In this document: positions 447-24,489 of the stretch, piece after piece
Position numbering within the stretch: the first letter of the stretch is position 1
Layout of the letters: the number at the start of each line of letters is the position of its first letter
Origin: a virus
IMG/VR virus record: IMGVR_UViG_3300034092_000346
Span: 1 to 26,013 of that record
Strand: one strand, 5' to 3'
Length of the DNA stretch: 26,013 bases
The notes under the pieces: model-generated
Told to the model about the DNA's origin: nothing
Database searches by the model: none
What the model saw: the letters and a program-made list of their open reading frames with translations, nothing else
Translations under genes and position numbers: made by a program

Positions 447-614
447 TCAGGTCCCAGGAGCCACAGGCGGATACTCCTCATCCAGATTCATCGGAGAAGG
501 AACGTATCCTTTGGCAAACAGCACCCGCTGAGCTTCTTGGTAGTAGGGGCTATCTTTAGGAGCCACGGCAATGATACGTTTTGCTTGGTCAGGTGTAAGA
601 TCAATCTTAGTCAT
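447..614 (-). CDS. Hypothetical protein, 55 aa, overlapping thyX
   Basis: I do not recognise this protein. The chosen start is the ATG at 614, which overlaps the last eight bases of thyX in another frame. A longer frame back to 758 exists but lies wholly inside thyX and is very unlikely. The protein starts MTKIDLTPDQAKRIIAVAP, has a short predicted helix rich in Ala, Lys and Arg, then an acidic, Pro-rich tail (DEEYPPVAPGT). It has no membrane segment and no Cys pair. The overlap suggests translational coupling to thyX. It is the last gene in the phage transcription direction and is followed by the hairpin at 373-420. Confidence 0.55.
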   Translation of the reverse strand: MTKIDLTPDQAKRIIAVAPKDSPYYQEAQRVLFAKGYVPSPMNLDEEYPPVAPGT

Positions 615-1245
615 CGGTTTCTTGGATAACGTTGAAGATACTTGGAATTTCTTTACAAAGAATGCTGGCAATCTCTTGGGCAATCTGTCTATGCTCCAGC
701 TGTGTCTCCGGCCCACGCCGCACCTGGAGGTAGTGAAGCCAGCTACGGAGAGTCCCACTCATATAGAGCCGGGTAGGACTGTTGATGGGAAGGATCTTCC
801 TGGCACACTCCTTTGCAATTCCTAACTCAAGCAACCGCTGATACGCAAGCGTCGATTCTTTAATCACGTTGGCACAGAGCTGGTCTGCCTCAGCAATTGC
901 TTCCAGGTCGAGGTCATCGATGCTGTTCTGCCGGTTGGTCAGGTCCTGACGCCGGAAGCAGGGAATCTCAGGCCTAAGTGTAACCTCCGCATACCGCTGC
1001 GAAAACTCCTGAAAGGAGAAGCTCCGATGCCTCAGGATCTGTGCGCTAATATCACGGGTCGTGTTTATTTCTACGCAGCAGCTGGCCATCTCAAACGGAC
1101 TCCAGTGCTTATGCTTGATCAGGTACTTAAGCAGCCGTTCTGGGCTCTTGTTCTCTTCTTGGGACTTAGGATTACTGACTCTGGCACAGTAGGTAATGAT
1201 GGACTCAGCATCCGGTGTGATCCAGATAAGCTTAGTAGCAGGCAT
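607..1245 (-). CDS. thyX: Flavin-dependent thymidylate synthase ThyX
   Basis: ThyX methylates dUMP to dTMP using methylenetetrahydrofolate, with FAD and NADPH, in the host cytoplasm; phages carry it to raise dTTP supply during replication. The 212-aa length fits the family. The family signature is visible at residues 72-85 (RHRSFSFQEFSQRY), matching RHRxxSxQExSxRY and holding the FAD/dUMP-binding Arg, Ser and Gln residues. The N-terminus carries the usual HxxxFE-like segment (HWSPFEMA, residues 47-54). The gene follows the terminase after a 345-base structured gap and overlaps a 55-aa ORF by eight bases. No Shine-Dalgarno is visible before the ATG. A nucleotide-metabolism gene placed among late genes is notable; the function is secure from the motif. 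Confidence 0.96.
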   Translation of the reverse strand: MPATKLIWITPDAESIITYCARVSNPKSQEENKSPERLLKYLIKHKHWSPFEMASCCVEINTTRDISAQILRHRSFSFQEFSQRYAEVTLRPEIPCFRRQDLTNRQNSIDDLDLEAIAEADQLCANVIKESTLAYQRLLELGIAKECARKILPINSPTRLYMSGTLRSWLHYLQVRRGPETQLEHRQIAQEIASILCKEIPSIFNVIQETDD

Positions 1246-5148: not shown

Positions 5149-5466
5149 CTAACCGGTAGTCCAGGACAGAACCCTGGAGAAGTTTTTGTGGTCAAAAGAG
5201 TCTTGACCAACCCACCACGACAACCAGTGGTTCGAACCTTTGGACTGGTTGCAATCTAGACAAGCGGGCACAACATTGTGGGTAGTGTCGTGCCCACCAC
5301 GGGCTTTTGGATGGACATGATCGAGCGTTAGATTTTCAGATGAGCCACAATAGACACACTGGTTGTTCCAATGTTCCTTAATGGCTGTCCTCCACATACG
5401 CTTGGCTTCGGCTGCGGTCATGGCCTTAAGAAAGTAGAGGTATTCAGAAGGATCTTTGAGAGGCAT
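5149..5466 (-). CDS. HNH endonuclease, 105 aa
   Basis: This is a small metal-dependent nuclease. Visible features are CVYC at residues 37-40, the HNH core LTLDHVHPKARGG with catalytic-type Asp49-His50, THNVVPACLDCNQSKG with CLDC at 69-72 as the second zinc pair, and Asn73. The N-terminus (DPSEYLYFLKAMTAAEA) is helical. It is either a free-standing mobile nuclease or a packaging nuclease: in several tailed phages an HNH protein near the terminase genes is needed for DNA cleavage by terminase. Here it lies between the maturase A-like gene and terL, which supports but does not prove the second idea. Confidence 0.9.
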   Translation of the reverse strand: MPLKDPSEYLYFLKAMTAAEAKRMWRTAIKEHWNNQCVYCGSSENLTLDHVHPKARGGHDTTHNVVPACLDCNQSKGSNHWLSWWVGQDSFDHKNFSRVLSWTTG

Positions 5467-7379: not shown

Positions 7380-7628
7380 TTAACTCTTAGTAACGCTTGT
7401 CAAATTACTACCGCTGTATGTTAATGTCAGCGTTGCCACAGTGGTTCCACCAGATCCACCAGTCTTATAAACTACTCCAGTCAAGTTACTGCCCGTATAG
7501 GTAAGAGACACATAATCATGCGTAGGAATTTCAAGACCAGTGACGGTTGGAATAGGATTAGTGGAGGCATTTGCAATTTCCACATAATCCAAAGAGTACC
7601 TACCCGAAGGTGGTGTGAGTACGGTCAT
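7380..7628 (-). CDS. Small repeat-containing structural-like protein, 82 aa
   Basis: It has two copies of a short unit, LTYTGSNLTGVVYK and LTYSGSNLTSVTK, separated by a Gly/Thr linker. The N-terminal part includes VEIANASTNPIPTVTGL. Such units occur in phage appendage proteins. Its ATG overlaps the endolysin stop as ATGA, so the two are probably co-translated. It shows no lysis-like membrane segment. I consider it a small virion appendage protein of unknown role. Confidence 0.6.
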   Translation of the reverse strand: MTVLTPPSGRYSLDYVEIANASTNPIPTVTGLEIPTHDYVSLTYTGSNLTGVVYKTGGSGGTTVATLTLTYSGSNLTSVTKS

Positions 7629-8608
7629 TTGTTATTCTCCTCAATGAGGCGGATGAGTTTGCTAGGATAGGACGGATCGGTCGCGTAGCCTTCGCTTTGG
7701 AGCAACTGACAGCACTCCTTCCACGACGTAGCACGGTTGATGCCCTTGTAGCCCTTATAATCTTTGTACCACATGGCAATCAGGTGGTCGATACAAGCAG
7801 TAGGGCTAGGATAGTCCTTGAAGGTAGCAACGACGGTGGTCCAGCGACCATTTAGGAACTCTTTTGTTTCCTGATTTGTGCCTGGTGTGCCCTTGATGCC
7901 AAAGAAGTTGTTCTTGCCAGACGTGTGTTGACCCCAGCTGCTTTCCAGGGCCCACTGGGCTGCCACAACCTCAGGAAACTTGGCTCCACAGGCCTTAGCA
8001 ACGGCCTTGACGCCCTTCCATGAGTTCTCAAAGGTAAGGGAAGCAGGGGCAATCTTGATTTCTTCGATGCGACGGAGGTCCATGAACCATGCCTCACCGC
8101 CGTGTGTCCACCGTGGAAGCCAATTCTTCCAGGTATAACTGACGCTTTTGCCGCCAAAGCCTCGATGAGGATAGCCTCCATTAAGATTGTCTAGTTCCCC
8201 GTAGGGGTCATGGAAGATGCCGTGGGTTTCGGTTGCTCCAATCAGCAGAATCCAGTGCCCACCACCACGAGGGGCAGAGGACGGACCGTGATGAAGGAAG
8301 CCAACAGGCACCGGAAGACCAGCACCGAGGCGATCATAGAGACCTTGGAGGCTGCCATTCTTGTAGAAGGTGGCCTTGACGTTGTAAGTAGCGGCTGCTT
8401 TGATCTGTGACTGTGGGTTCGTGGTGTCCCCATACTTGAGGACAGTTCTCAGGTAGTCATCATCAGCATTGACCCCCGACAAGGCGGAAGGCCATAGGTA
8501 TTTGACACCCATGGCCATCGTGCTAGAAAAGCACATCCTATCTGCGTGGGCCGTGCGACTATCTGTTTGTGGGTAGTACTGGGCAACCGGCAGGAGGATG
8601 TTTGTCAC
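7625..8608 (-). CDS. Two-domain endolysin: C39-like peptidase plus glucosaminidase
   Basis: The 327-aa protein degrades peptidoglycan at lysis. Residues 1-180 look like a C39/papain-type peptidase: Cys26 in RMCFSST, His118 in GGGHWILLIG and Asp134 in FHDPYGE would be the triad. Residues about 195-327 look like a FlgJ-type beta-N-acetylglucosaminidase, with Glu222 in AAQWALESSWG and the following NNFFGIKG motif. There is no signal peptide, so it needs a holin. It starts at GTG 8608, overlapping the stop of the holin-like gene as GTGA, and its own stop overlaps the next ATG. T7 uses an early amidase instead, so this is a different lysis solution. Confidence 0.88.
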   Translation of the reverse strand: MTNILLPVAQYYPQTDSRTAHADRMCFSSTMAMGVKYLWPSALSGVNADDDYLRTVLKYGDTTNPQSQIKAAATYNVKATFYKNGSLQGLYDRLGAGLPVPVGFLHHGPSSAPRGGGHWILLIGATETHGIFHDPYGELDNLNGGYPHRGFGGKSVSYTWKNWLPRWTHGGEAWFMDLRRIEEIKIAPASLTFENSWKGVKAVAKACGAKFPEVVAAQWALESSWGQHTSGKNNFFGIKGTPGTNQETKEFLNGRWTTVVATFKDYPSPTACIDHLIAMWYKDYKGYKGINRATSWKECCQLLQSEGYATDPSYPSKLIRLIEENNK

Positions 8609-9214: not shown

Positions 9215-10648
9215 TTATGAATTGGCAGAACGAGAAATTTCATACCAGTATGGAGTCCGATAGATGAGTGTCAAGGTGTCTCCTGCGGTAGACGTGAAGT
9301 TTGTGCCGCCAAGAAGGTAGGCGTTGCTGCGGTTTATTGTTGTGTTTGAGTCGTTAAAGACGCAAGTGACAACTTGACCGTCTATTGCGTTGCTTAAGTT
9401 TGTAATAATAGTTGATGAACTATTGTTAAACCATAGGGAGTTTAGCCCTCTAACAGAGGGAGATGTATCCCCATTGGCCGCAGTACCCAATGACGCAGTG
9501 ACGAGTCCTCTTGGTGTTTGACGAAGGCTGTCAATGACATTGCCAAATGCAACAACGTTCGAGTACCCAGTAGCGCCAGACACCTCGGTAGCGCCAGCAA
9601 CAAGTGAGTTTCCGATAAGAGTGACACTTCTAGAGGCAATGTTGCTTACAAAGTTATACGCTGAAGCGAGTTGAACCGTGGTAACACCAGAAATGAGTAC
9701 ATCGGCTGCAGCCCAATTCAATCGGAATATCTGACTTGTTGTGCTAGTGCCTGAAATATACCCACCATACACATTGATTCCACGAGCATCCGTAGTTCCA
9801 GACCCGGAAACCTCTAAAAATGCTGCTGAACCCCCGTTGCGTTCCATGTGAAGGCCATGGAAAGTTGCTCCTCTGCATTGTTTAATTTCGATAGCTGCAG
9901 CAGGTTCATCAGTAAAAGTACTAATACTGCCACCAAACCATTCAAAATCAACAATATCCATAGAACCAGACATTCCAAGAACAAGGCGGCATTGTAGAAG
10001 CTGCGCATTAAACATTCTGCAGTCCTGTGCTCTGTCAGCCAAAACACCTACCTGGCCCACGCCATTGCCAAAGATATTGATGTCGCGCAGGATTGCATGA
10101 TCACATCTGCCTGGATTAGCTGCTGCGATGCCCAGAATAATTGCAGCTGTGGACGGAAACACGGTTGGGCGCATACAGACTTCCTGGATAAGAAAGCCGT
10201 CAGTAACACCAACACGAATAAAAGATGTGCAAGTGCCCGTATTTTCAAAGTCAAGCGAGCGAACGCTGCTATTTCGGCAGTCCGCGCCTACGTCAACAGC
10301 GATAGACGCCCCTCCAATCCACTTAAGGACAGTCGGTGCATTATTTTGACCAGCCAGGCTGCTTCCTGACCCAATAAGCGAAATACCTTTGTTTGCCCCA
10401 GAAAGTGATAGCGTATTAGCAAAACAGTAGATTCCTGGAGGGAAAAAAACAACTCCACCTCTATTTGTAAGCGTTGCAGCAATAGCCGCCTGAATGGCCG
10501 CCGTATCATCCGCCACACCGTTTCCAACGGCCCCAAAGTCCTTAACGGATACAACATCCCTGAGCTTATTCTCAACGGTCCTCTGGACACCTCCAGCCCC
10601 CGAAGGGGTGAAGGCGCCGAGGTCGGAGATGTTTCGTGTTTTAGTCAT
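9215..10648 (-). CDS. Second tail spike, pectate-lyase-like beta-helix
   Basis: The 477-aa protein has a short N-terminus (MTKTRNISDLGAFTPSGAGG) that ends in the spike-neck motif VKDFGAVGNGVADD at residues 35-48. A long Gly/Asn/Val-rich right-handed beta-helix body follows (for example VFFPPGIYCFANTL), then a compact beta-rich C-terminus (LIYRTPYWYEISRS). This architecture is typical of capsule- or EPS-degrading or binding spikes. It has no T7-type virion adaptor, so it probably docks on another protein. It overlaps the 90-aa gene as TAATG. Catalytic residues cannot be assigned by eye. Confidence 0.85.
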   Translation of the reverse strand: MTKTRNISDLGAFTPSGAGGVQRTVENKLRDVVSVKDFGAVGNGVADDTAAIQAAIAATLTNRGGVVFFPPGIYCFANTLSLSGANKGISLIGSGSSLAGQNNAPTVLKWIGGASIAVDVGADCRNSSVRSLDFENTGTCTSFIRVGVTDGFLIQEVCMRPTVFPSTAAIILGIAAANPGRCDHAILRDINIFGNGVGQVGVLADRAQDCRMFNAQLLQCRLVLGMSGSMDIVDFEWFGGSISTFTDEPAAAIEIKQCRGATFHGLHMERNGGSAAFLEVSGSGTTDARGINVYGGYISGTSTTSQIFRLNWAAADVLISGVTTVQLASAYNFVSNIASRSVTLIGNSLVAGATEVSGATGYSNVVAFGNVIDSLRQTPRGLVTASLGTAANGDTSPSVRGLNSLWFNNSSSTIITNLSNAIDGQVVTCVFNDSNTTINRSNAYLLGGTNFTSTAGDTLTLIYRTPYWYEISRSANS

Positions 10649-10982: not shown

Positions 10983-11000
10983 ATAAAGTTTATACTTTAT
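10983..11000 (-). terminator. Weak AT hairpin at the end of the fibre gene
   Basis: ATAAAGT-TTAT-ACTTTAT is a perfect 7-bp inverted repeat spanning the fibre stop codon; on the minus strand it is followed by TTAATTG. AT pairs and the lack of a long U-run make it a poor terminator at best. Confidence 0.25.
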
Positions 11001-13203
11001 AAACAATACTGAAATAAATACGACCGGATGTAAAAGTATTATTTACAAAATCGCCATTTTTAGTAAGAACTAATGTTGTACCGCCTGTGCCTAAGTAGCA
11101 ACTGTCACCACCTCCTGAAACCATGTCAAAATAACTAACTGGTCCTGAAGCGGAGAAAGAGGTAAGAGTTTTTGCTGCAAAAGGGATGCCAGTTATAAAA
11201 CATAATCCGCCCCCACTTGAGCTAACTGATGAAACAAAAAGAGAACCGTTAATGGTAACTGTATCACCAACTTTTGTATAAACGCCAACCCGATCACCAT
11301 ACACAAAAGTAGGAGCAGTCTCTCTAGTAAATCCAGGTGTCCAAGTACCTTCCTCGTAATCGTCTAATGTGTTGGCATCAGCCGATGAGTATTGAGTAAC
11401 CGGAAAAGCAATACCTTGTTGTGGATAGCCTGTGCGATAGTAATGATCAGCATAAGCTCCAGGCGTTGTACCACTTATAAAATCAATTCTGTTACCAGCC
11501 GGTGAATTTATTTTGGATCTAGGATTAGACGTAATTGTTCCATCGCCTAGTTGCAATTCATTTGTTCTGGTTTGAATGTCAAAGTAACCAGTTGTCATGT
11601 AGCATTGAAACGCACCAACGCTTGCGTTGTTTGTTACACCACCAAGAATGTTATGTCGATGGACTCCATAAAAACCAGACGTGGAAGTTGTTGCGCCTAG
11701 TTCTGCTGTTAGCGTGGAAATGGACAAACCTTCCACATAAACGCCAAAAAGATTGGCAACAGCGGCAATCCCAGATGCCCGACCAAGTTTAATAATATGA
11801 GTAGCAGATGCTTGGTTGACATCCATGACTCCGCCAAAGAAATCCCAGGTACCGGATTCGATGTCTACGCATTTAACTTCTGCATTAAAATGACAGCCGC
11901 TAAAGCTATTGCCTCCACCATCGCTTTGCAAGTATGCTGCTATGTTGCCACCAAACCAGCATTGGCTAAAGGTTACATAATAACATTCATTGGTAGTCGC
12001 AAGAGCAGTATCCATTGCAGTAACGACAACGTTTCTGACATTGGAATAACCAACACCACGCATATTCAGGCCGATGCTTCCAGTCAAGCGAGAGCTATTG
12101 TTAATGACTAGATCACTAATTTCCCAGCCAACTAGCCTACTGCCATATGTTGGGTTTTCTCCGTAGGGGCCACGCAGGAAGGACTTGTTTGTGAGACTAC
12201 CTTTAATAATTGAGCTTCTAGCTCCGGCTCCTCTAAGGCAAGTGTAGTCACGCAGTACCAACGATGATGAAATTAAATACTGTCCAGATGGGAAATAGAC
12301 AGCAGGTTGTCCGGTCAGAGCAATAGGAATGGCTTGCGTATAGGCATAATCAATAGCTGCTTGAATAGCAGCCGTGTCATCAACCACGCCATTGCCTACA
12401 GCGCCGAAGTCCTTGACGCTGACAACTTCCTTTAACTTACTGTCAACAGTCCTAGTAATAGCCCCAGAACCTGTCTGTGTCCAATAAATACCACCGGCTT
12501 GATCCGTAGTAGTGCCATTAGCGTTATTAACGCAATGAACATCTACTACATCTCCAACTTCAAGAGCTACAGCAAAGGTAACCGTAGTACCATTATCTGC
12601 TGTGTAATCGACGTTACGTTGCTGAAGAACACCATTAATAAAAACCGTTTCTCTGCTGGCAGAGTAAGCAAGTGTTCCGCCATACTCACCGGCACCCGAA
12701 AAGACGGTTTGATCAGCAGTAGCCGTTTGTCTCCACCTTGTAACTCCAGGCACAGTCAATTGGCCATAACGATCATCAACATATTTCTTGGTGGCACTAT
12801 CAGCATCCAAAGTAGGAGTGCCCACATTGATAATCTTGAATCCACCCATGTTGAGAATACCAAGCATGGTATCTCCAAACTTACTCAGAGCCCTAAACGC
12901 AATCTCTTGGACAGAGTAAAGAGTCTGTGAGAAGTTAGCATTCAAATCCTGAGCCTTGATGGCAGATCCAGGAAAGATGGTGGCCTTGGTTTCTTCATTA
13001 TCGGTGTCCCGATAGATCCGAATCGATGCCCCAGCGCCAGGAGCCGCAAGGAACTGAATTGAAGTGTCAGTAGCAAAGATATAGTTGGTGACAATGGTTC
13101 CATTAACCGAAACCTTGACATCCGACCTATCCAAATAAGGAAAAGACAGGGAATAGAGTACAGTGACTCCATCCCCCGTATAAGTGTTTTGAACGACAGC
13201 CAT
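10990..13203 (-). CDS. Tail fibre/spike with T7 gp17-type adaptor
   Basis: The 737-aa protein attaches to the tail and contacts the host surface. Residues 1-110 match the T7 gp17 N-terminal adaptor (QNTYTGDGVTVLYSLSFPYL, DVKVSVNG, DLNANFSQTLYSVQE). DADSATKKYVDDRYGQL at 133-149 is the usual segment after the adaptor. Residues 263-280 (VKDFGAVGNGVVDDTAAI) open a pectate-lyase-like beta-helix body. An EEGTWTPGF module near residue 640 begins a C-terminal beta domain. I chose the ATG at 13203 (MAVVQ) over a TTG at 13209. The start lies just past the gp16-like stop. T7 gp17 is 553 aa; the excess is the spike body. Confidence 0.92.
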   Translation of the reverse strand: MAVVQNTYTGDGVTVLYSLSFPYLDRSDVKVSVNGTIVTNYIFATDTSIQFLAAPGAGASIRIYRDTDNEETKATIFPGSAIKAQDLNANFSQTLYSVQEIAFRALSKFGDTMLGILNMGGFKIINVGTPTLDADSATKKYVDDRYGQLTVPGVTRWRQTATADQTVFSGAGEYGGTLAYSASRETVFINGVLQQRNVDYTADNGTTVTFAVALEVGDVVDVHCVNNANGTTTDQAGGIYWTQTGSGAITRTVDSKLKEVVSVKDFGAVGNGVVDDTAAIQAAIDYAYTQAIPIALTGQPAVYFPSGQYLISSSLVLRDYTCLRGAGARSSIIKGSLTNKSFLRGPYGENPTYGSRLVGWEISDLVINNSSRLTGSIGLNMRGVGYSNVRNVVVTAMDTALATTNECYYVTFSQCWFGGNIAAYLQSDGGGNSFSGCHFNAEVKCVDIESGTWDFFGGVMDVNQASATHIIKLGRASGIAAVANLFGVYVEGLSISTLTAELGATTSTSGFYGVHRHNILGGVTNNASVGAFQCYMTTGYFDIQTRTNELQLGDGTITSNPRSKINSPAGNRIDFISGTTPGAYADHYYRTGYPQQGIAFPVTQYSSADANTLDDYEEGTWTPGFTRETAPTFVYGDRVGVYTKVGDTVTINGSLFVSSVSSSGGGLCFITGIPFAAKTLTSFSASGPVSYFDMVSGGGDSCYLGTGGTTLVLTKNGDFVNNTFTSGRIYFSIVYKV

Positions 13204-13205
13204 TG

Positions 13206-16200
13206 TCAATTAGGGTAATTGGTCAAATCGGTTACTTGATCATAGACACCACGCCGGAACTTGACCTTCTCCTGACGTGCCTCACGGACCATCTCTGCAA
13301 AGCCTGGGTCCTTACGTTCCATGGAACGGAATGCGGAGTCTTTGGATTGATTGATGATGCGTTGAACAGCCTCATAGTGGCGAGGACGGTTGGATTCCGA
13401 AGAGAATGACAGCCCACGGGCCTTCCAATCACTGAGGCTTTCCTTAAACCAATCCTGCGACATAAGACGCTCCAGACGGCTACGAACGCCGTTGCGATAC
13501 ATTTCTTGAGAAAGCATCCGACGCTGTTCACCGGTCAGTTCTACGCCCATAGGGCCGGTCTTGATGACATCCTTCATTTCGTAGTTAATGTCTACGAGCA
13601 TGTCCTTTACCTTATCCTCACCCATCTTTGCATACCTGATGGGGCTGATGGCATTGTAAAGACCACCGGCAGAGGATTCAACCTCTTCACCAGTAAGGAA
13701 ATCAACCTTTGTTGGACCGAGCAGTTTATAGCCTGGCAGCGCTGCGTTAAGAGCACGCTTGAGTTCTCCATCCACTTCCTTCATGTAAGGATCGATGGCA
13801 TTAGCAAGCATCCTCCTAGCACCAGCATAGGGCAGGAAGTTGTTGGCAGTGTTAAGGATTCCCTTAGTTACTCCATCAGCAGTCATGTTGCGTGGATCAA
13901 GCATCTCCGACAGGCCAGCAAGGCCAGCAAGATAACTCTTCTCCGTAACAGCAGCAGCAATGGCAAAGGCAACCTGACCAGCAGCACGCTCAGCAGCATC
14001 AGCAGCCCCCATGTTAGCCAACATCGCAATGTCAGCAACAGAAGCCATGATTGTGGCGAGAGGTTCGATGGGTTGGTAAGAGATCCAGTTATCACCAACC
14101 TTGAGGGACATTGGGCGATAACCACGATTCAACCAGATTGCCCGTTCCTCAGCATCCACAGGACCGTTTCCGGTAACAAGACCATTCAGAGCAGCCATGC
14201 CAACCAGGCCAACAGTCATGGTTCCAATAGCTTCTCGTCCCTTAAGTTCCGCAATCAGCAGTTCATCACCGGCTCGAACGGCTTCCTTGTATTGAGTAAG
14301 GAACCTAGCCAGACCAGGCGTATGCTGACCAGCATAAGCAAGGATGTTTGCTGGGGTACGAATAAAGGGAACGAAGATACGGCCAACACCAAGGGGAATA
14401 GAGTTCAGAGCATTAGCAATGCTGTTGGTGACTCCACCCGGATCTTGTTGGAAGGTAGCACGCTCTGCGTAGTCAAGCAGAGTCGGATCAAGAATGCGTC
14501 CAGTTGTCGGATCAATCTTCCTAGAAAACTCTTGGAGGTAGTTCTGAAAGAGACCGTCAACGTCGTTGGCACTCTTAGAGTCCGACATAGCCTTAAACAT
14601 GGCATCGGTCTGAACCTTTTGCCGTGCGTTAAGGGTCTTAAAGAAGTCATCAGCACCAACCATCATCCGACTGGGCAGACTAATGATTGGGTTATGAGTA
14701 AAGCGATACAGGGCCTCAACGAAGCCCGCAGCACGTTCCTCAGCAGTTCCAGGCTGAGCAGCCATCTTAAGACGTTCAATACCAGCAAGGGCTTGAGCAT
14801 CCTCAATGACAAACTTAGCATTCAGGTTAACAGAATCTCCAGTTCGCATGGAGGTCAATCCAACCTGCCATGCTTCCGATACGCTGCTGTAGATGGCATG
14901 ATAGCCAGCCATTGCTGAGCGACGGAGACTCTCATTGTTATTAAGTGTGCCCTGAAGTAGGATCGACGTGGGCCGCTCCACAAGGGCATAGGTGTTGCCA
15001 ATGACGTTACGCAGGTGCGTGATGGGACCGGACAGAATGGAGTTATACATCCCACTCATCAGCTCATCTACACCAAGTTTGGCAGCAATATAAGTAAAGT
15101 TGACGGCCTTGGTAGGATTACCACCAGCAAGAGCCATTGCCCTTACCAGTTTCTCCAGTTGTTCCTGGGCATCAGGATCACCAATCCGCTTAAGTTCCTT
15201 GACCTTGGCAGCCCATTCTCTGGCCTGACGCATGGTAAGCTCAACGCTATCATCGGCAGCATCTGCCCGAACGTTGATACCACTCATCAGGTCCAACCCA
15301 AAGGCTTGAAGACCTCCGCCATGGAACACAGCAGCTTGTTTATGTAGGCCCAGCATTGTCACAAGCCGATCAACCATTCGATCGAACTGGTTGCCACCAG
15401 CAAGACGTGCCTCAAGGGCCTTGTCTGCGTTAAGTGCAAGATCGAAGATTTGGTTGCTGGTATCGGTAATCAGTGCCTTGAGGGCAACGACACCTTCTCT
15501 GGTAAGCATATCACCAGAAGTACCATCGGTAGCACCACGCACTTCCATCATGGCTCCTGACTTCTTCAGAAGATCCGTGATATTATCAGTGGGTTCATTC
15601 CAGGTACGGGTAGCATCTCGCACATCTTGAACGATCCTAGCAGCATCACTAACAATGCTATCGGTGGAACGTCCAAGGCTCTTGGCAAGATTCTGAAGAT
15701 CAGTACGACGAGTAGTCTGACGCACATACTGCTCCACCTCATCGTCCAAATTCAGGATACGATAGGCAGCATCAGTAAGGATATGATCAGAACCACCGTG
15801 AGCGGAGATGTTGGTTCGGAAGCTTGAAGGGGCATCAGGAACCCGAGCAGAGTTTGGAATGGGACCATTCTCTACCTCAAGCTGCTGTTTAACAACTTGA
15901 TTGACATCAACCTCTTCCTTGTAGGCAGAGCGTTCGTGGGGCATCAAACCCGGATCATCCGGATCATAGCCACGAATGATCTCATCGTCCAGCTGTGCCT
16001 GACTCAGGCGAATATCTTCAAGGTCTCTGACAACGCTTTGAAGTTGTGGATCCTCATCGGTCAAACCAGCATTACGCATGGTCTGTTCCTGTTCCAGCAG
16101 CTTCTGTTCCTTGTCCAGAAGACTATTAATTTCCTTCTGCTGAGCATCCGACCACCGAGTTCCCTCTTGACGGATGGTACGAACGTTGTTCTTATCAGCA

Positions 16201-17111
16201 GCAGCCTTGGCCTCCTCTGTTGCCTTGAGACCTTCGGCTATTGCTTGATCCTTTGTTTTGCCCTGCTTAAGAGCGCTCTGAGCGGCCCTACGGCCTGCCA
16301 GCATCCAAACGAGGGAATCAACCGCAGCACCAGCAACACCACCCTCCAGGACCGTTTTAAGGCGTGCCTGCCAAGGATTATCAGCCTTGTCGGTTGCCAG
16401 AGCAAACATAAAGGAGTCCCGATACTGCTCCGGAACCATATTCTGAACAAGGTTGCTTAGGTTACCATCGTTTGGTTTGGCCAACATAAAGTCTGCCACA
16501 GCACCAGGAACGATGCCAGCAGCAATGGCTCCTTTGAGGCCAACGCCTTTTGTACCAAGTTTGATGGCTGCCGATGGAAGAACCCTTGCCGCAGCCGACA
16601 TACCGGTTGCAAAGGTAAGAACACCTTCAGCAAACTTACCAACCGGAGTCTTAGGACCCTCAACCTTAAAGTCATAAACGGCTTGAACGTACCGCTTATC
16701 GAATGGATTCTTTGTAGGATCCTTTTGAAGGGGACTGACTACTGTATCCTTGACCAGTTCACCAGTATTGAGAACACCTTCAATTAAATTAACGGGTGCT
16801 TTAACAACTGCACGGCTTGCTTCCCTGAATGCTTTTTCTTGGGGAACAGCCTGTTCTTGTGCTGCTGCTGCCTGTTGATAAATGTTAATCCCTTCCTTGA
16901 CTCCAGGCAGCTGTTGAACAGCATCAAAGACGGGCTGAAGTGGATTACGAGTACGAGCGGACTCTTCTTGTTGCTTTTTCTTAAGCTCCTGAGCTTGGCG
17001 TTGCTGTTGTTGCTGACGCCTCCGCTCCTCTTCATCTTTTTTGTTGCGTTCCAGAGGATCTTCGACACCCTGGCGTTGGCTGCTGCCAAACTCTCTCCAA
17101 CTGCTAGTCAT
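13206..17111 (-). CDS. Internal virion protein, T7 gp16-like
   Basis: The product is 1301 aa; T7 gp16 is 1318. In T7 this core protein is ejected and helps form the DNA channel across the envelope. I chose the ATG at 17111 (MTSSWREFGSS); an extension to 17177 would run through a terminator hairpin. Residues about 25-55 are a Gln/Lys/Glu coil (KKDEEERRRQQQQQRQAQEL). The body has amphipathic Ala-rich helices and possible membrane-interacting stretches (MTVGLVGMAALNGLVTG). Unlike T7 gp16, no transglycosylase motif is present at the N-terminus; it is at the end of the upstream protein. The stop overlaps the fibre gene region closely. Confidence 0.88.
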   Translation of the reverse strand: MTSSWREFGSSQRQGVEDPLERNKKDEEERRRQQQQQRQAQELKKKQQEESARTRNPLQPVFDAVQQLPGVKEGINIYQQAAAAQEQAVPQEKAFREASRAVVKAPVNLIEGVLNTGELVKDTVVSPLQKDPTKNPFDKRYVQAVYDFKVEGPKTPVGKFAEGVLTFATGMSAAARVLPSAAIKLGTKGVGLKGAIAAGIVPGAVADFMLAKPNDGNLSNLVQNMVPEQYRDSFMFALATDKADNPWQARLKTVLEGGVAGAAVDSLVWMLAGRRAAQSALKQGKTKDQAIAEGLKATEEAKAAADKNNVRTIRQEGTRWSDAQQKEINSLLDKEQKLLEQEQTMRNAGLTDEDPQLQSVVRDLEDIRLSQAQLDDEIIRGYDPDDPGLMPHERSAYKEEVDVNQVVKQQLEVENGPIPNSARVPDAPSSFRTNISAHGGSDHILTDAAYRILNLDDEVEQYVRQTTRRTDLQNLAKSLGRSTDSIVSDAARIVQDVRDATRTWNEPTDNITDLLKKSGAMMEVRGATDGTSGDMLTREGVVALKALITDTSNQIFDLALNADKALEARLAGGNQFDRMVDRLVTMLGLHKQAAVFHGGGLQAFGLDLMSGINVRADAADDSVELTMRQAREWAAKVKELKRIGDPDAQEQLEKLVRAMALAGGNPTKAVNFTYIAAKLGVDELMSGMYNSILSGPITHLRNVIGNTYALVERPTSILLQGTLNNNESLRRSAMAGYHAIYSSVSEAWQVGLTSMRTGDSVNLNAKFVIEDAQALAGIERLKMAAQPGTAEERAAGFVEALYRFTHNPIISLPSRMMVGADDFFKTLNARQKVQTDAMFKAMSDSKSANDVDGLFQNYLQEFSRKIDPTTGRILDPTLLDYAERATFQQDPGGVTNSIANALNSIPLGVGRIFVPFIRTPANILAYAGQHTPGLARFLTQYKEAVRAGDELLIAELKGREAIGTMTVGLVGMAALNGLVTGNGPVDAEERAIWLNRGYRPMSLKVGDNWISYQPIEPLATIMASVADIAMLANMGAADAAERAAGQVAFAIAAAVTEKSYLAGLAGLSEMLDPRNMTADGVTKGILNTANNFLPYAGARRMLANAIDPYMKEVDGELKRALNAALPGYKLLGPTKVDFLTGEEVESSAGGLYNAISPIRYAKMGEDKVKDMLVDINYEMKDVIKTGPMGVELTGEQRRMLSQEMYRNGVRSRLERLMSQDWFKESLSDWKARGLSFSSESNRPRHYEAVQRIINQSKDSAFRSMERKDPGFAEMVREARQEKVKFRRGVYDQVTDLTNYPN

Positions 17112-17163
17112 CGTTGATGATATGGTCCCCGCAGGGATAAGGGTTGATAGTTGATACAAGAAA

Positions 17164-17185
17164 AGGGGCCAACGCATTGACCCCT
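17164..17185 (-). terminator. Intrinsic terminator between gp15- and gp16-like genes
   Basis: On the minus strand AGGGGTCAA-TGCG-TTGGCCCCT forms a nine-pair stem with one wobble and a 4-base loop, followed by TTTTCTTG. It lies 20 bases after the gp15-like stop and upstream of the gp16-like ATG at 17111. Partial termination would lower expression of the gp16-like protein and everything downstream. Confidence 0.75.
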
Positions 17186-17204
17186 CACCAAATGTGTTTC
17201 TTGT

Positions 17205-19811
17205 TTACCGGACACCAAGACGAGCAAGAGCGCGTTTTGCTTCCGGAAGATATTGACGGTACGCACCGGTACGGTAGACCGTCCAGGCTCCAAGTCCTTG
17301 TGATTCAAAGACACGCTTTGCTGCTCGAACATTGGTTGCCGGATCCCAAAGATCTTCATCACGCTTGAGACCAAATTGCCGCCTGCGTTGGTTACCAAGC
17401 TCATCAATCATGTTAATCTGCCAGAGACCATAGGAATTGTCTCCGGTAGACCGATTTGGGTTGTGAGCATTAGACCTACCACCCGATTCAGCAAGAGCAA
17501 TGGCTGCCATGATTGGCGCAGTGTTCTTATTAAATCCGGAATCGATTGCAAGGCGAACAAGTTCATCAGGCCCCAATTGACCACCAGGAGTTGATCCAGG
17601 GGCAGGGCCTCCATTTTTACTGGTTTCGAGCGTAACTTGACGTTGGCGGGCATTATTGATGTCATTCCAGGCTCTGATTCGTTGAGAGGCAGAGGCATTT
17701 GGATTGACCAGGATGGCAGCAGCAGCAGGGGCAAGAGCCCGACGCTGTTGAGCAGCCTGAGCCGCTTGGGACTGTGATAGTTGTGTAAAGGGAATACCAT
17801 AAGCTTGAGATTGATCTCTCAAGAACGTGTCCCAACTCTTTCCAGTCGCAGTCATAAGAGCGCGTACCCGAGGAGTGGGTTGCTGTCCATTCAGGAAGTT
17901 CTGAGTGTTCTGAGCAAGTTCTTGAGAGCTGATCAACCAGTCCGTCTTAGATACGGGTCGAGACGACTGTACCTGAGCAGGAGTGGCGGTGCTGAAGTCC
18001 CTGGTTTGCCTTCCAGTAACTGGATTGAGAAACCTTTGGACCCTGGGATTATTGGACAGGGGGGCCTTGGGCACTACTCTACCATCCTGAATGACAGGGG
18101 TAAAGCGGGGCTGTTTGATCAGAGCATCTGCTCTTGTACGCAGGAAGTCGCGGACCTCCGCAGGAGAGGTTTGTGGATTTTGCTCAATGAATGTTTGGGC
18201 CAACTCAGACAATTCGTCTGACATCTGACCCTCAAGTAGGGCTGCCGCAGATCCAGCATCGGTAGCATTGATGCCTTGAACTGCTAATGTATCCGCATAG
18301 ACTCCGCGAACAAGACGTTTAATTTCTGGTTCCAGAGCCTTTGTCTTGGCAACAGCAGCAGAACTGGGAACTCGATTCTTAAGATCGTTTGCTTCGCTGG
18401 CAGTAATACGACCAAGCCGTACTAGTTCATTGATACTAGATTCGCTTGGATACCTACCAGAAGCAATGTCTCTGGCAAGATCCGCAGCAAGGAAGGGGTT
18501 ATAGTTTTCCCCTTGTTGAATCATGTTAGTAAGGGCATCCACGGCCTTCTTACTTCCAGCAGAAGCCAAACCACGAAGTTGATCGGTGGTCTGTGCCCAG
18601 CTGGTTTGAATCTGTGAAGGGTTTACGTTTGGCTGAGTGAGAAGCAGTTGGTGGGCGGACAATAGATCATCCACCATATCATCCTGCTCCTTCTCCTTCT
18701 TGCCTTGAATGTAATCATTATACTGCTCAACATTACGAGCAGCTGCTTCAAACAAGGGACGGAACCGATCACCCACTCGTGGACCGTTTGGTTGATCAGC
18801 AATGAGTGGTGTGTTAGCCAGAGCTTCTAGTAGATCTGTTCTACCAAGAGCCTTAGCATGTTCAATAAAGGATTCAACAACCGCTTGATTGGCTTCTCCA
18901 CGGCTCAATCTACCACCGATTTGAAGATCTCTGGTGGCTGTTTGCCAGAAGGTTTGAATCAAACGTGGATCATTGGCATCAAGGGTAAGAACCTCAGCAC
19001 CAATAAATTCACTGACCTGTTCAATCTCTTCCTGTTGAAGTGCCTTACGAGCAGAAGCCAGACGATTACTGACCAGCCCCTGCTTCACACCAAGCATGGT
19101 AGGGGTAAGATGCTCAGCAATGATGACAGGATTGACTCGGGAAATGCCTGCTTGATCGATGAACATCTGCTGTCCAACAGCAAACGATGCCATGATCTCG
19201 GCGGGAGTTTTAGCATCCCTCGGAGCAATCAACTTCGTAGAACCATCTGGATTGGTGATGGGAACAACTGGCTTATCGCTTTCCATGAACTCAGACATGA
19301 TCGTCTGACTGGAAGCAGCAGCAAGTTTAGCACGTCCAACGGCTTGACCATAAGCCCTCCACCCATTGATAGCAGGACTATCAGCACGAGCCTGTTCTGC
19401 TACGGCAGGAGATATTTGAGCAACCGTGTCACTAAGAGCAGCATCCTGAGAAGCCTTGTTTGCAAGAGCAGTTTCAGCAGACTTGAAATTATCGTATGCC
19501 TCAGGTTTGATGGTAAGATCACCATTCAGAACCTCAGCCATGCCAAGCTTCATTTCTGATTCGTTGCGCTTCTCTGCTTCTTTAAACAGAAAGTCACTCA
19601 GAGTATTGGAGAACTGTGACAGCGCCTCTACATTCAAAGCAGAGTTACGAAGCATGACCCTGCCAGCCTCGGCATACTGTTCGATCTGCCGTTCCTGCTG
19701 ATTGAGGATCTGCCGTGATGGATCGAACGCCTGAACTGGATTAAAGCCTACTCCGGACTGTGGACCTCGGATCGCAACCCTAGGCCCCTGTGATTGATAG
19801 ATTTGTGCCAT
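17205..19811 (-). CDS. Internal virion protein, T7 gp15-like, with C-terminal transglycosylase
   Basis: The protein is 868 aa; T7 gp15 is 747. Most of it is helical and Ala/Gln-rich, like internal core proteins ejected into the host. The last 123 residues (746-868) are a lytic transglycosylase (SLT) domain: IMAAIALAESGG with catalytic-type Glu775, NSYGLWQINM at 792-801 and a final AWTVYRTGAYRQYLPEA. This domain would open peptidoglycan during DNA entry. In T7 it is at the N-terminus of gp16, so the gene boundary has moved. The start has an AACAATGG context, and a terminator follows. Confidence 0.9.
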   Translation of the reverse strand: MAQIYQSQGPRVAIRGPQSGVGFNPVQAFDPSRQILNQQERQIEQYAEAGRVMLRNSALNVEALSQFSNTLSDFLFKEAEKRNESEMKLGMAEVLNGDLTIKPEAYDNFKSAETALANKASQDAALSDTVAQISPAVAEQARADSPAINGWRAYGQAVGRAKLAAASSQTIMSEFMESDKPVVPITNPDGSTKLIAPRDAKTPAEIMASFAVGQQMFIDQAGISRVNPVIIAEHLTPTMLGVKQGLVSNRLASARKALQQEEIEQVSEFIGAEVLTLDANDPRLIQTFWQTATRDLQIGGRLSRGEANQAVVESFIEHAKALGRTDLLEALANTPLIADQPNGPRVGDRFRPLFEAAARNVEQYNDYIQGKKEKEQDDMVDDLLSAHQLLLTQPNVNPSQIQTSWAQTTDQLRGLASAGSKKAVDALTNMIQQGENYNPFLAADLARDIASGRYPSESSINELVRLGRITASEANDLKNRVPSSAAVAKTKALEPEIKRLVRGVYADTLAVQGINATDAGSAAALLEGQMSDELSELAQTFIEQNPQTSPAEVRDFLRTRADALIKQPRFTPVIQDGRVVPKAPLSNNPRVQRFLNPVTGRQTRDFSTATPAQVQSSRPVSKTDWLISSQELAQNTQNFLNGQQPTPRVRALMTATGKSWDTFLRDQSQAYGIPFTQLSQSQAAQAAQQRRALAPAAAAILVNPNASASQRIRAWNDINNARQRQVTLETSKNGGPAPGSTPGGQLGPDELVRLAIDSGFNKNTAPIMAAIALAESGGRSNAHNPNRSTGDNSYGLWQINMIDELGNQRRRQFGLKRDEDLWDPATNVRAAKRVFESQGLGAWTVYRTGAYRQYLPEAKRALARLGVR

Positions 19812-19813
19812 TG

Positions 19814-20434
19814 TTACTTCTCACCCTTTGGAGCTTTAAGACTTGTATAGGCACTGTATCCACTCAACCCACCCTGAGCAACACCAGTTATTAATCCAAT
19901 AGGCGATGGCCCTGGCACTGGAATCGGAGCACTGGGTTTAAGCATCTGGTTAGAAGCAACCACGTTATTCTGACTCTGTGCTTCATTAAAGACAGCTTGA
20001 GTGTTATTATAGAAGTCATTCTCTGTCCACGCCAAGTTAACACCAAGGGTAGCCAGATCTCTTCCATACTGCCTCTCCGCATCCGACATCAATAGGCCAA
20101 CGGATTGACCAGTACGACCCGAAGCCAAGATCGTGCCTTGGGTTTGAAGGGACGAGGTGAGCAATGTTTGTTGTTCAGTGATGGCCTTCTGATACTCCGC
20201 ACGCAGTTTATTCTGCTCAGACACATAAGCCCGATTGGCGGATTCAGCATTCAATCGATACTGTTCTTTGGTAGCAACAACAGAACGTTCGTATGCTTGA
20301 ACTTCAGCTTGATACCGCTGTTGATTGACAGAGTTTTGATAGGCAACTTCCTGTTGTTGTTGCGAGTAGGCCGCAATAGATCCAACAACTGAAGTAAGGC
20401 CGGTAATAATACCGACTACAAGTGGGGCGCACAT
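19814..20434 (-). CDS. Internal virion protein, T7 gp14-like
   Basis: The protein is 206 aa; T7 gp14 is 196. The N-terminal hydrophobic stretch (LVVGIITGLTSVVGSIAAYS, residues 5-24) is followed by a long Gln/Ala/Glu coiled coil (QQQQEVAYQNSVNQQRYQAE) and a Pro/Gly-rich tail. In T7, gp14 forms part of the outer-membrane channel after ejection; the membrane stretch plus helix agrees with this. The start lies inside the gp13-like gene (19-base overlap), and its stop is two bases before the gp15-like ATG, so all three are coupled. Confidence 0.85.
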   Translation of the reverse strand: MCAPLVVGIITGLTSVVGSIAAYSQQQQEVAYQNSVNQQRYQAEVQAYERSVVATKEQYRLNAESANRAYVSEQNKLRAEYQKAITEQQTLLTSSLQTQGTILASGRTGQSVGLLMSDAERQYGRDLATLGVNLAWTENDFYNNTQAVFNEAQSQNNVVASNQMLKPSAPIPVPGPSPIGLITGVAQGGLSGYSAYTSLKAPKGEK

Positions 20435-20895
20435 GGCATTAACTTAGCAAATTCAACATAGGTTAAAGATTTTGGGCCAACACTAACATAAGCCAACCGT
20501 TTGAAACCAAGCAGATGAAGAAGTTTCATATGCATTCGGTTCCTTGGATCGGCTACGTTGTGAAGTAATGGATAGGAGGTCTGACGATCGACCCACTGTT
20601 TAGCCTCCTTTAAGAATAGTTTGGGGTACTGGCGGACATAGGGTGTGGTTAACATCCAGATGGCTCCGCTATGGGCATCGGTTCTGGATACCCCAGCAGC
20701 CCCGCAAATCATGCCGTCTGGATTCCAGAAGCAGATTGGATCATCGGACACCTCAACGGAAAGGCGAAGGGCCAGGCGCATGTCTGCAAATCCTAGCCCC
20801 TCAAGCTCCTGCTTGTCCTCAGGTTGGAGATTGTCGGCCACCCATTGAACATCGTAGGGTCGGGCCTTGTCAATGAGTTTGGTACAAATTCCCAT
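20416..20895 (-). CDS. T7 gp13-like internal virion/assembly protein
   Basis: The 159-aa protein has an acetyltransferase-like (GNAT/DUF2833-type) look: a central 'GMICGAAGVSRTDAHSGAIWML' core in two strands and 'ADPRNRMHMKLLHLLGFKRL', typical of the last helix and strand of that fold. T7 gp13 (138 aa) belongs to this family and acts in virion assembly. The ATG at 20895 abuts the TAA of tail tube B, and the end overlaps the gp14-like start by 19 bases. Enzyme activity is not implied. Confidence 0.8.
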   Translation of the reverse strand: MGICTKLIDKARPYDVQWVADNLQPEDKQELEGLGFADMRLALRLSVEVSDDPICFWNPDGMICGAAGVSRTDAHSGAIWMLTTPYVRQYPKLFLKEAKQWVDRQTSYPLLHNVADPRNRMHMKLLHLLGFKRLAYVSVGPKSLTYVEFAKLMPCAPHL

Positions 20896-24458: not shown

Positions 24459-24489
24459 AAAAAAAAGGAGGCCCCCGTAGAGACCTCCT
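24459..24489 (-). terminator. Strong intrinsic terminator after the capsid gene
   Basis: On the minus strand AGGAGGTCTC-TACG-GGGGCCTCCT pairs over ten positions (wobbles T-G twice), closed by a C(UACG)G tetraloop, which is exceptionally stable, then eight Ts. It lies 35 bases past the capsid stop. T7 places its major late terminator T-phi just after gene 10, so function and place coincide. Confidence 0.9.

Follow-up and report, generated by a model that had tools for sequence, protein, structure and literature searches.

The gp15-like ejection protein of a cyanopodovirus-like phage ends in a probable wall-opening domain

Phage T7 opens the cell wall locally during ejection by means of a lytic transglycosylase of the PF01464 subfamily located at the N-terminus of gp16, as is found in T7-like (Studiervirinae) gp16 proteins. 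In the virus record IMGVR_UViG_3300034092_000346, analysed here over its full 26,013 nucleotides (positions 1 to 26,013; hereafter the window), a putative wall-opening domain occupies the neighbouring place in the gene order, at the end of the gp15-like protein, which raises the question of how it came to be attached to a different ejection protein. An initial annotation of the sequence proposed that the domain had moved across the gp15/gp16 gene boundary while keeping its map place. Domain searches and gene order confirmed that the domain belongs to the gp15-like ejection protein rather than to gp16, whereas its derivation from gp16 was contradicted by the comparisons described below. It is highly likely that the window carries a T7-like ejection cassette close to those of cyanopodoviruses, in which the gp15 C-terminus represents a slot for wall-cutting domains, filled here by an SLT_3 domain as found in cyanomyovirus tail proteins and acquired through exchange at the 3' end of gp15 rather than by sliding over a gene border. 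The features on which this argument is based are as follows.

17205..19811, minus strand: gp15-like (octameric-type) ejection protein of 868 amino acids with a C-terminal wall-hydrolase domain, assigned by phrog_19560 (virion structural protein, E 5e-23) and synteny
17205..17576, minus strand: C-terminal SLT_3/lysozyme-fold domain, residues 746-868 (Pfam core 753-844)
17487..17489, minus strand: codon of Glu775, the predicted catalytic acid and equivalent of Glu35 of C-type lysozyme, based on sequence, invariance and phmmer alignment to 2fbd
17163..17186, minus strand: gp15/gp16 hairpin with UGCG loop and T-rich tail, the loop being conserved and the stem varying in relatives
13206..17111 (open frame to 17177), minus strand: gp16-like internal virion protein of 1301 amino acids with a Gln-rich N-terminal coil, assigned by phrog_6651 (E 8e-176)

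Identity of the gp15 C-terminal domain

The last 123 residues of the gp15-like protein include Glu775 within an ALAESGG motif, followed by SYGLWQIN, from which a wall-opening domain had been predicted. In agreement with this prediction, residues 753-844 scored 53.5 bits with Pfam SLT_3 (PF18896), for which the curated cut-off is 27 (E 3.5e-14), and covered positions 2-88 of the 89 in the profile, while the same region matched SLT (PF01464) more weakly (26.6 bits against a cut-off of 21.3). When compared with solved structures using phmmer, C-type lysozymes represented the best matches (2fbd, E 2e-4); in this alignment Glu775 pairs with Glu35, whereas the position of Asp52 is occupied by a Ser, with an Asp two residues earlier. 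The best structural matches of an AlphaFold model of the domain, generated from six sequences, were insect and vertebrate C-type lysozymes (Foldseek probability of 1.00 for 2fbd), and structural comparison with 2fbd and hen egg-white lysozyme returned Z scores of 9.2-8.5, the best being 9.2 with a root-mean-square deviation of 3.2 over 102 residues. At the moderate confidence of this model, these results are indicative of a C-type-lysozyme-like fold with an equivalent of Glu35 and without one of Asp52. The domain may thus be a lysozyme or a lytic transglycosylase, between which the sequence does not discriminate. The designation 'transglycosylase' is therefore retained as a family label and not as a statement of chemistry, since the subfamily is SLT_3 and C-type-lysozyme-like rather than T7-type SLT.

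The Ser at the Asp52 position would also be expected if the domain were a non-catalytic relic with a peptidoglycan-binding or structural role, the wall being opened by other means, such as an unrecognised domain of gp16. This explanation is considered unlikely, as Glu775 and the surrounding TGDNS[YF]GLWQIN motif, including the nearby Asp of GDNS, showed no variation across the window's clade. Moreover, a counterpart of Asp52 is likewise absent from lytic transglycosylases and goose-type lysozymes.

The gp16-like protein and the gene boundary

The gp16-like open frame spans 13206-17177 on the minus strand. Its likely start is the ATG at 17111, because the ATG at 17177 lies within the loop of the hairpin and relatives start at the equivalent of 17111, which was found in L003, L004, L007 and L008 (the prefix L denotes loci compared with the window). 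The ATG at 17177, the frame of which is not kept in L003, was accordingly rejected. As initially described, the protein opens with a Gln-rich coil (RRRQQQQQRQAQELKKKQQ), and no SLT, lysozyme or other hydrolase family was detected in it using Pfam and PHROG, nor did phmmer return any match among solved structures. Profile hidden Markov model searches of gp16 from the window and the surveyed marine relatives did not reveal an SLT or SLT_3 domain, at its start or elsewhere; each surveyed record holds a single such place, in gp15. These negatives argue against a relic in gp15 whose function has been taken over by gp16. Nevertheless, the gp16-like protein may harbour a hidden second hydrolase, as does the gp16-like protein of PhiM1, in which an endolysin-like domain is inserted internally (PMC11440229), a kind of domain that a sequence search could miss in the window.

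The gp15 stop and the gp15/gp16 boundary are the same in L002-L009, and the stop, hairpin and start were also observed in independent contigs with gp15 identities of 99%, 76%, 42% and 33%. This conservation argues against a frameshift or split-gene artefact, and nothing was found in favour of one gene having been divided or wrongly joined by a sequencing or assembly error, the probability of which is regarded as negligible.

The hairpin at this boundary (17186-17163, minus strand) consists of a 10 bp stem, a UGCG loop and a T-rich tail; approximately 0.1 such stem-loops (of at least six pairs) are expected per strand of the window in shuffled sequence. In L003-L009 the UGCG loop is invariant while the stem sequence varies. 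A UGCG hairpin is also located directly after gp15 in Syn5 (L017), S-CBP42 (L018) and most Syn5-type metagenomic loci (L042-L060), and is absent at this place in T7, phiKMV and P-SSP7. The terminator hairpin of the initial annotation is thus present, but it is a feature of the gp15/gp16 junction of this clade, whatever enzyme is encoded there, and not of a newly formed boundary. It would most likely function as a partial terminator or processing signal, lowering gp16 relative to gp15. Elsewhere in the window, a strong terminator-like hairpin with a UACG loop and a T run (24466-24489, minus strand) is located just 3' of the capsid gene, in a position comparable to that of T7 Tphi.

Relationship of the domain to T7-type gp16

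If the domain had been derived from a T7-type gp16 by a shift of the stop and start to its other side, it would be expected to resemble the gp16 enzyme. It does occupy the corresponding map place, with the gp15 body on one side and the gp16 body on the other, and both the window and T7 domains possess a lysozyme-like SLT motif. However, the subfamilies differ: T7 gp16 matched PF01464 at 108 bits and did not match PF18896, and profile comparison of the window-clade domain with T7-type gp16 SLTs yielded a probability of 8.6%. In contrast, the same comparison with cyanomyovirus tail proteins (tail lysozymes) yielded a probability of 100% (E 4e-52), and the P-SCSP1 gp15 ending and a Streptomyces tectivirus protein were matched at 99.9% and 99.8%, respectively. 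A tree inferred by maximum likelihood split off the T7 set with support of 100/100 on very long branches, while gp15-borne and myovirus-borne domains were interleaved within the SLT_3 part; for example, the S-CBP3 gp15 domain is joined at 100/98 to the tail 'lysozyme C' of Kyanoviridae phage DSL-LC03. The alignment of so short a domain is weak for fine branching, although the T7 split is not close. The domain thus differs from the T7-type gp16 lytic transglycosylase in both predicted subfamily and position, the latter being N-terminal on gp16. Together with the absence of detectable SLT domains from gp16 of the surveyed marine relatives, and with the non-homologous hydrolases that near relatives carry in the same slot (see below), this makes a boundary shift very improbable.

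Hydrolase domains at the gp15 C-terminus of relatives

An SLT_3 domain is also present at the gp15 C-terminus of L003, L006, L008, L009, P-SCSP1q and S-CBP3. The gp15 bodies of L004 and L007 are 65% (724 aligned residues) and 71% (320 aligned residues) identical to that of the window, respectively, yet their endings comprise a different SLT-like domain (GLGQVMPENVGPW or GLGQVMPENIGPW), for which the PF01464 match reached only E 0.017 and 0.0014, with an M23 domain (E 3e-9 and 4e-10) after it. L006 combines SLT_3 with the same M23 domain. The gp15-like proteins with M23/LytM after the SLT domain are located as follows.

L004, 8001-11096
L006, 7998-11069
L007, 2-1897
L030, 2-457

At the expected zinc-ligand places, the M23 domain reads QPGMD and SIDF, where we take the Gln of QPGMD to replace the first zinc-ligand histidine and SIDF to stand at the HxH place. 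The domain thus seems degenerate, and as its zinc ligands appear to have been lost, it may bind or regulate rather than cut. Furthermore, L030 possesses this M23-type gp15 ending even though its gp16 is 87% identical to that of the window, whereas L031 and L003, with 77% gp16 identity, carry the SLT_3 ending. How closely the following gene is related therefore does not predict the gp15 ending, a pattern that exchange would be expected to produce.

A third type of ending, similar to Phage_lysozyme2 (PF18013), was identified at the same gp15 place in P60 gp33 (E 4e-5), Syn5 gp44, S-TIP28 and S-CBP42. P60 gp33 (L019), Syn5 gp44 (L017) and the corresponding proteins of L018, L014 and L020 are annotated only as structural or hypothetical, and end in a phi29-gp13-like lysozyme domain; its Pfam score is weak in some of these, and that of SS120-1 (L020) was recognised through alignment only. 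The AlphaFold model of this domain (predicted local distance difference test score, pLDDT, of 79) had phi29 gp13, a tail wall-degrading enzyme, as its top three Protein Data Bank matches, with weak E-values. A search with the domain alignment retrieved 60 loci, whereas the Syn5 gp15 protein as a single query against viral_contigs returned Syn5 alone. In approximately 20 of the 60 loci (some being near-duplicates), the domain reaches to within a few residues of the end of an open reading frame of 830-1020 amino acids that is immediately followed by a gp16-sized frame, while the remaining loci include myovirus-type genes. The terminal GRYQFIGPT of S-TIP37 gp15 recalls lambda-type endolysins; in view of its lack of a Pfam match, it was not counted as a further filling.

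As relatives fill the gp15 C-terminal position with different enzymes, the domain appears to have been exchanged there rather than moved from gp16. The SLT_3 ending also bears on P-SCSP1q, where the SLT_3 domain that terminates a hypothetical protein of 953 amino acids (L015, 5499-8360) shares 51% identity with that of the window; phmmer against solved structures returned nothing for this protein. The internal virion genes of P-SCSP1 are annotated as hypothetical, and their role was suspected from size and place only (PMC9860041). The SLT_3 ending supports the view that, in MPP-C cyanophages, the 953 amino acid protein is the ejection protein in gp15 position.

Genomic context of the ejection cassette

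The structural genes of the window all lie on the minus strand and follow the T7 arrangement, i.e. major capsid, tail tube, nozzle (PF25675), the small phrog_308 protein, the gp14-, gp15- and gp16-like proteins and the tail fibre. The ejectosome order nozzle-gp14-gp15-gp16-fibre is thus T7-like, as judged by PF25675, PF24072, phrog_19560, phrog_6651 and the T7 fibre N-terminus. The following features flank the gp15 and gp16 genes.

20416..20895, minus strand: small protein encoded upstream of gp14 and classed by PHROG as an internal virion protein (phrog_308, E 5e-31)
19814..20434, minus strand: gp14-like internal virion protein (PF24072 T7_gp14, E 8e-19)
10990..13209, minus strand: tail fibre/spike, the next gene after gp16, with a T7 fibre N-terminus and a pectate-lyase-like region

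The families of the gp15- and gp16-like proteins, phrog_19560 and phrog_6651, are those of Syn5 gp44 and gp45, respectively. The closest annotated phages by gp16 are the Synechococcus phages S-TIP28, S-CBP42, P60 and Syn5 at 28-33% identity, indicating that the window represents a distant cyanopodovirus-like phage.

Two pectate-lyase-like tail spike/fibre proteins are encoded in the window, namely the above fibre (10990-13209, minus strand; TTG start in the list of open reading frames) and a protein with a depolymerase C-terminal domain (9215-10648, minus strand). An endolysin candidate (7625-8608, minus strand) contains both a glucosaminidase domain and a C39-like papain-fold region, while a thyX thymidylate synthase gene (607-1245, minus strand) and an HNH endonuclease gene (5149-5466, minus strand) flank the terminase gene region.

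Discussion

A wall-cutting enzyme on the gp15-like protein is already known from phiKMV gp36, SP6 gp36, K1E gp35 and PhiM1, and the window shares the position of the domain with these phages, although its predicted catalytic family is not that of phiKMV or SP6. In phiKMV, gp36 (898 amino acids, in gp15 position) carries a C-terminal wall-cutting domain (gp36C) that is active and thermostable, and is followed by a 1337 amino acid protein in gp16 position (PMC5380687). However, phiKMV gp36 did not match Pfam, including PF18896 and PF01464, its best matches being phrog_2083 and a baseplate lysozyme profile, and its body could not be aligned with that of the window. SP6 gp36 and K1E gp35 are gp15-like proteins with a lysozyme (PMC8954989); in SP6 gp36, the domain scan located a GH24 phage lysozyme (PF00959) at residues 770-905, a family other than SLT_3. 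The PhiM1 ejectosome, as resolved by cryo-electron microscopy, contains an octameric ejection protein with a lysozyme-like domain (residues 718-903) that is absent in T7 (PMC11440229). The window resembles PhiM1 in this respect, and differs in that no hydrolase domain was detected in its gp16-like protein. Syn5, P60, S-CBP42 and S-TIP28 likewise carry a lysozyme-fold domain at the gp15 C-terminus and share phrog_19560 and phrog_6651 with the window (tested for Syn5 and S-TIP28), but their domain is Phage_lysozyme2-like (phi29 gp13 type) and not SLT_3. Conversely, P-SCSP1 (MPP-C) shares the SLT_3 domain at the end of its gp15-position protein, while the remainder of its gp15 and its gp16 are not recognisably related to those of the window. 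The filling of this slot by SLT_3 and the exchange within the clade are not described in the literature searched.

Some observations weigh against a slot for wall-cutting domains in a T7-like cassette. Firstly, the AlphaFold model of the SLT_3 domain has a mean pLDDT of 63, i.e. moderate to low confidence. Secondly, the domain scan revealed no recognisable hydrolase in P-SSP7 gp15, which indicates that the slot is either empty in some phages or filled in a way that cannot always be recognised. Finally, the gp15 and gp16 bodies showed no sequence match to those of T7 and phiKMV when profiles of 8-9 rows were compared with single sequences using hhalign, so that the names gp15 and gp16 are based on gene order, size and the gp14 family; given fast divergence, homology is still possible.

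By analogy with T7, PhiM1 and phiKMV, we infer that several copies of the gp15-like protein (eight in T7 and PhiM1) would be ejected from the head and build a periplasmic tunnel, beside which glycan strands would be cut locally by their C-terminal domains, Glu775 serving as the general acid. This local cut would precede the passage of the tunnel and gp16 through the peptidoglycan, followed by that of the DNA. The SLT_3 domain itself would have been acquired when phages exchanged the 3' end of gp15. Beyond this, a tentative proposal, to which we assign somewhat less than an even chance, is that the gp15 3' end, bounded by the UGCG hairpin, is a recombination hot spot at which T7-like cyanophages swap whole hydrolase cassettes (SLT_3, SLT-like plus LytM/M23, or phi29-gp13-type lysozyme), both among themselves and with the tail genes of cyanomyoviruses. 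The entry enzyme could then be tuned independently of the tunnel, perhaps to host wall chemistry.

These findings place a probable wall-opening enzyme on the gp15-like protein of several marine T7-like phages (Syn5, P60, S-CBP42 and P-SCSP1), in which this protein has been annotated only as structural or hypothetical. If eight copies of gp15 indeed carry the enzyme, as opposed to approximately four copies of gp16 (T7 numbers), wall cutting would differ from that in T7 in both dose and location. The choice of enzyme is suggested to be modular and to change faster than the tunnel proteins, and from an evolutionary perspective, module exchange within a fixed slot is better supported than a domain sliding over a gene border.

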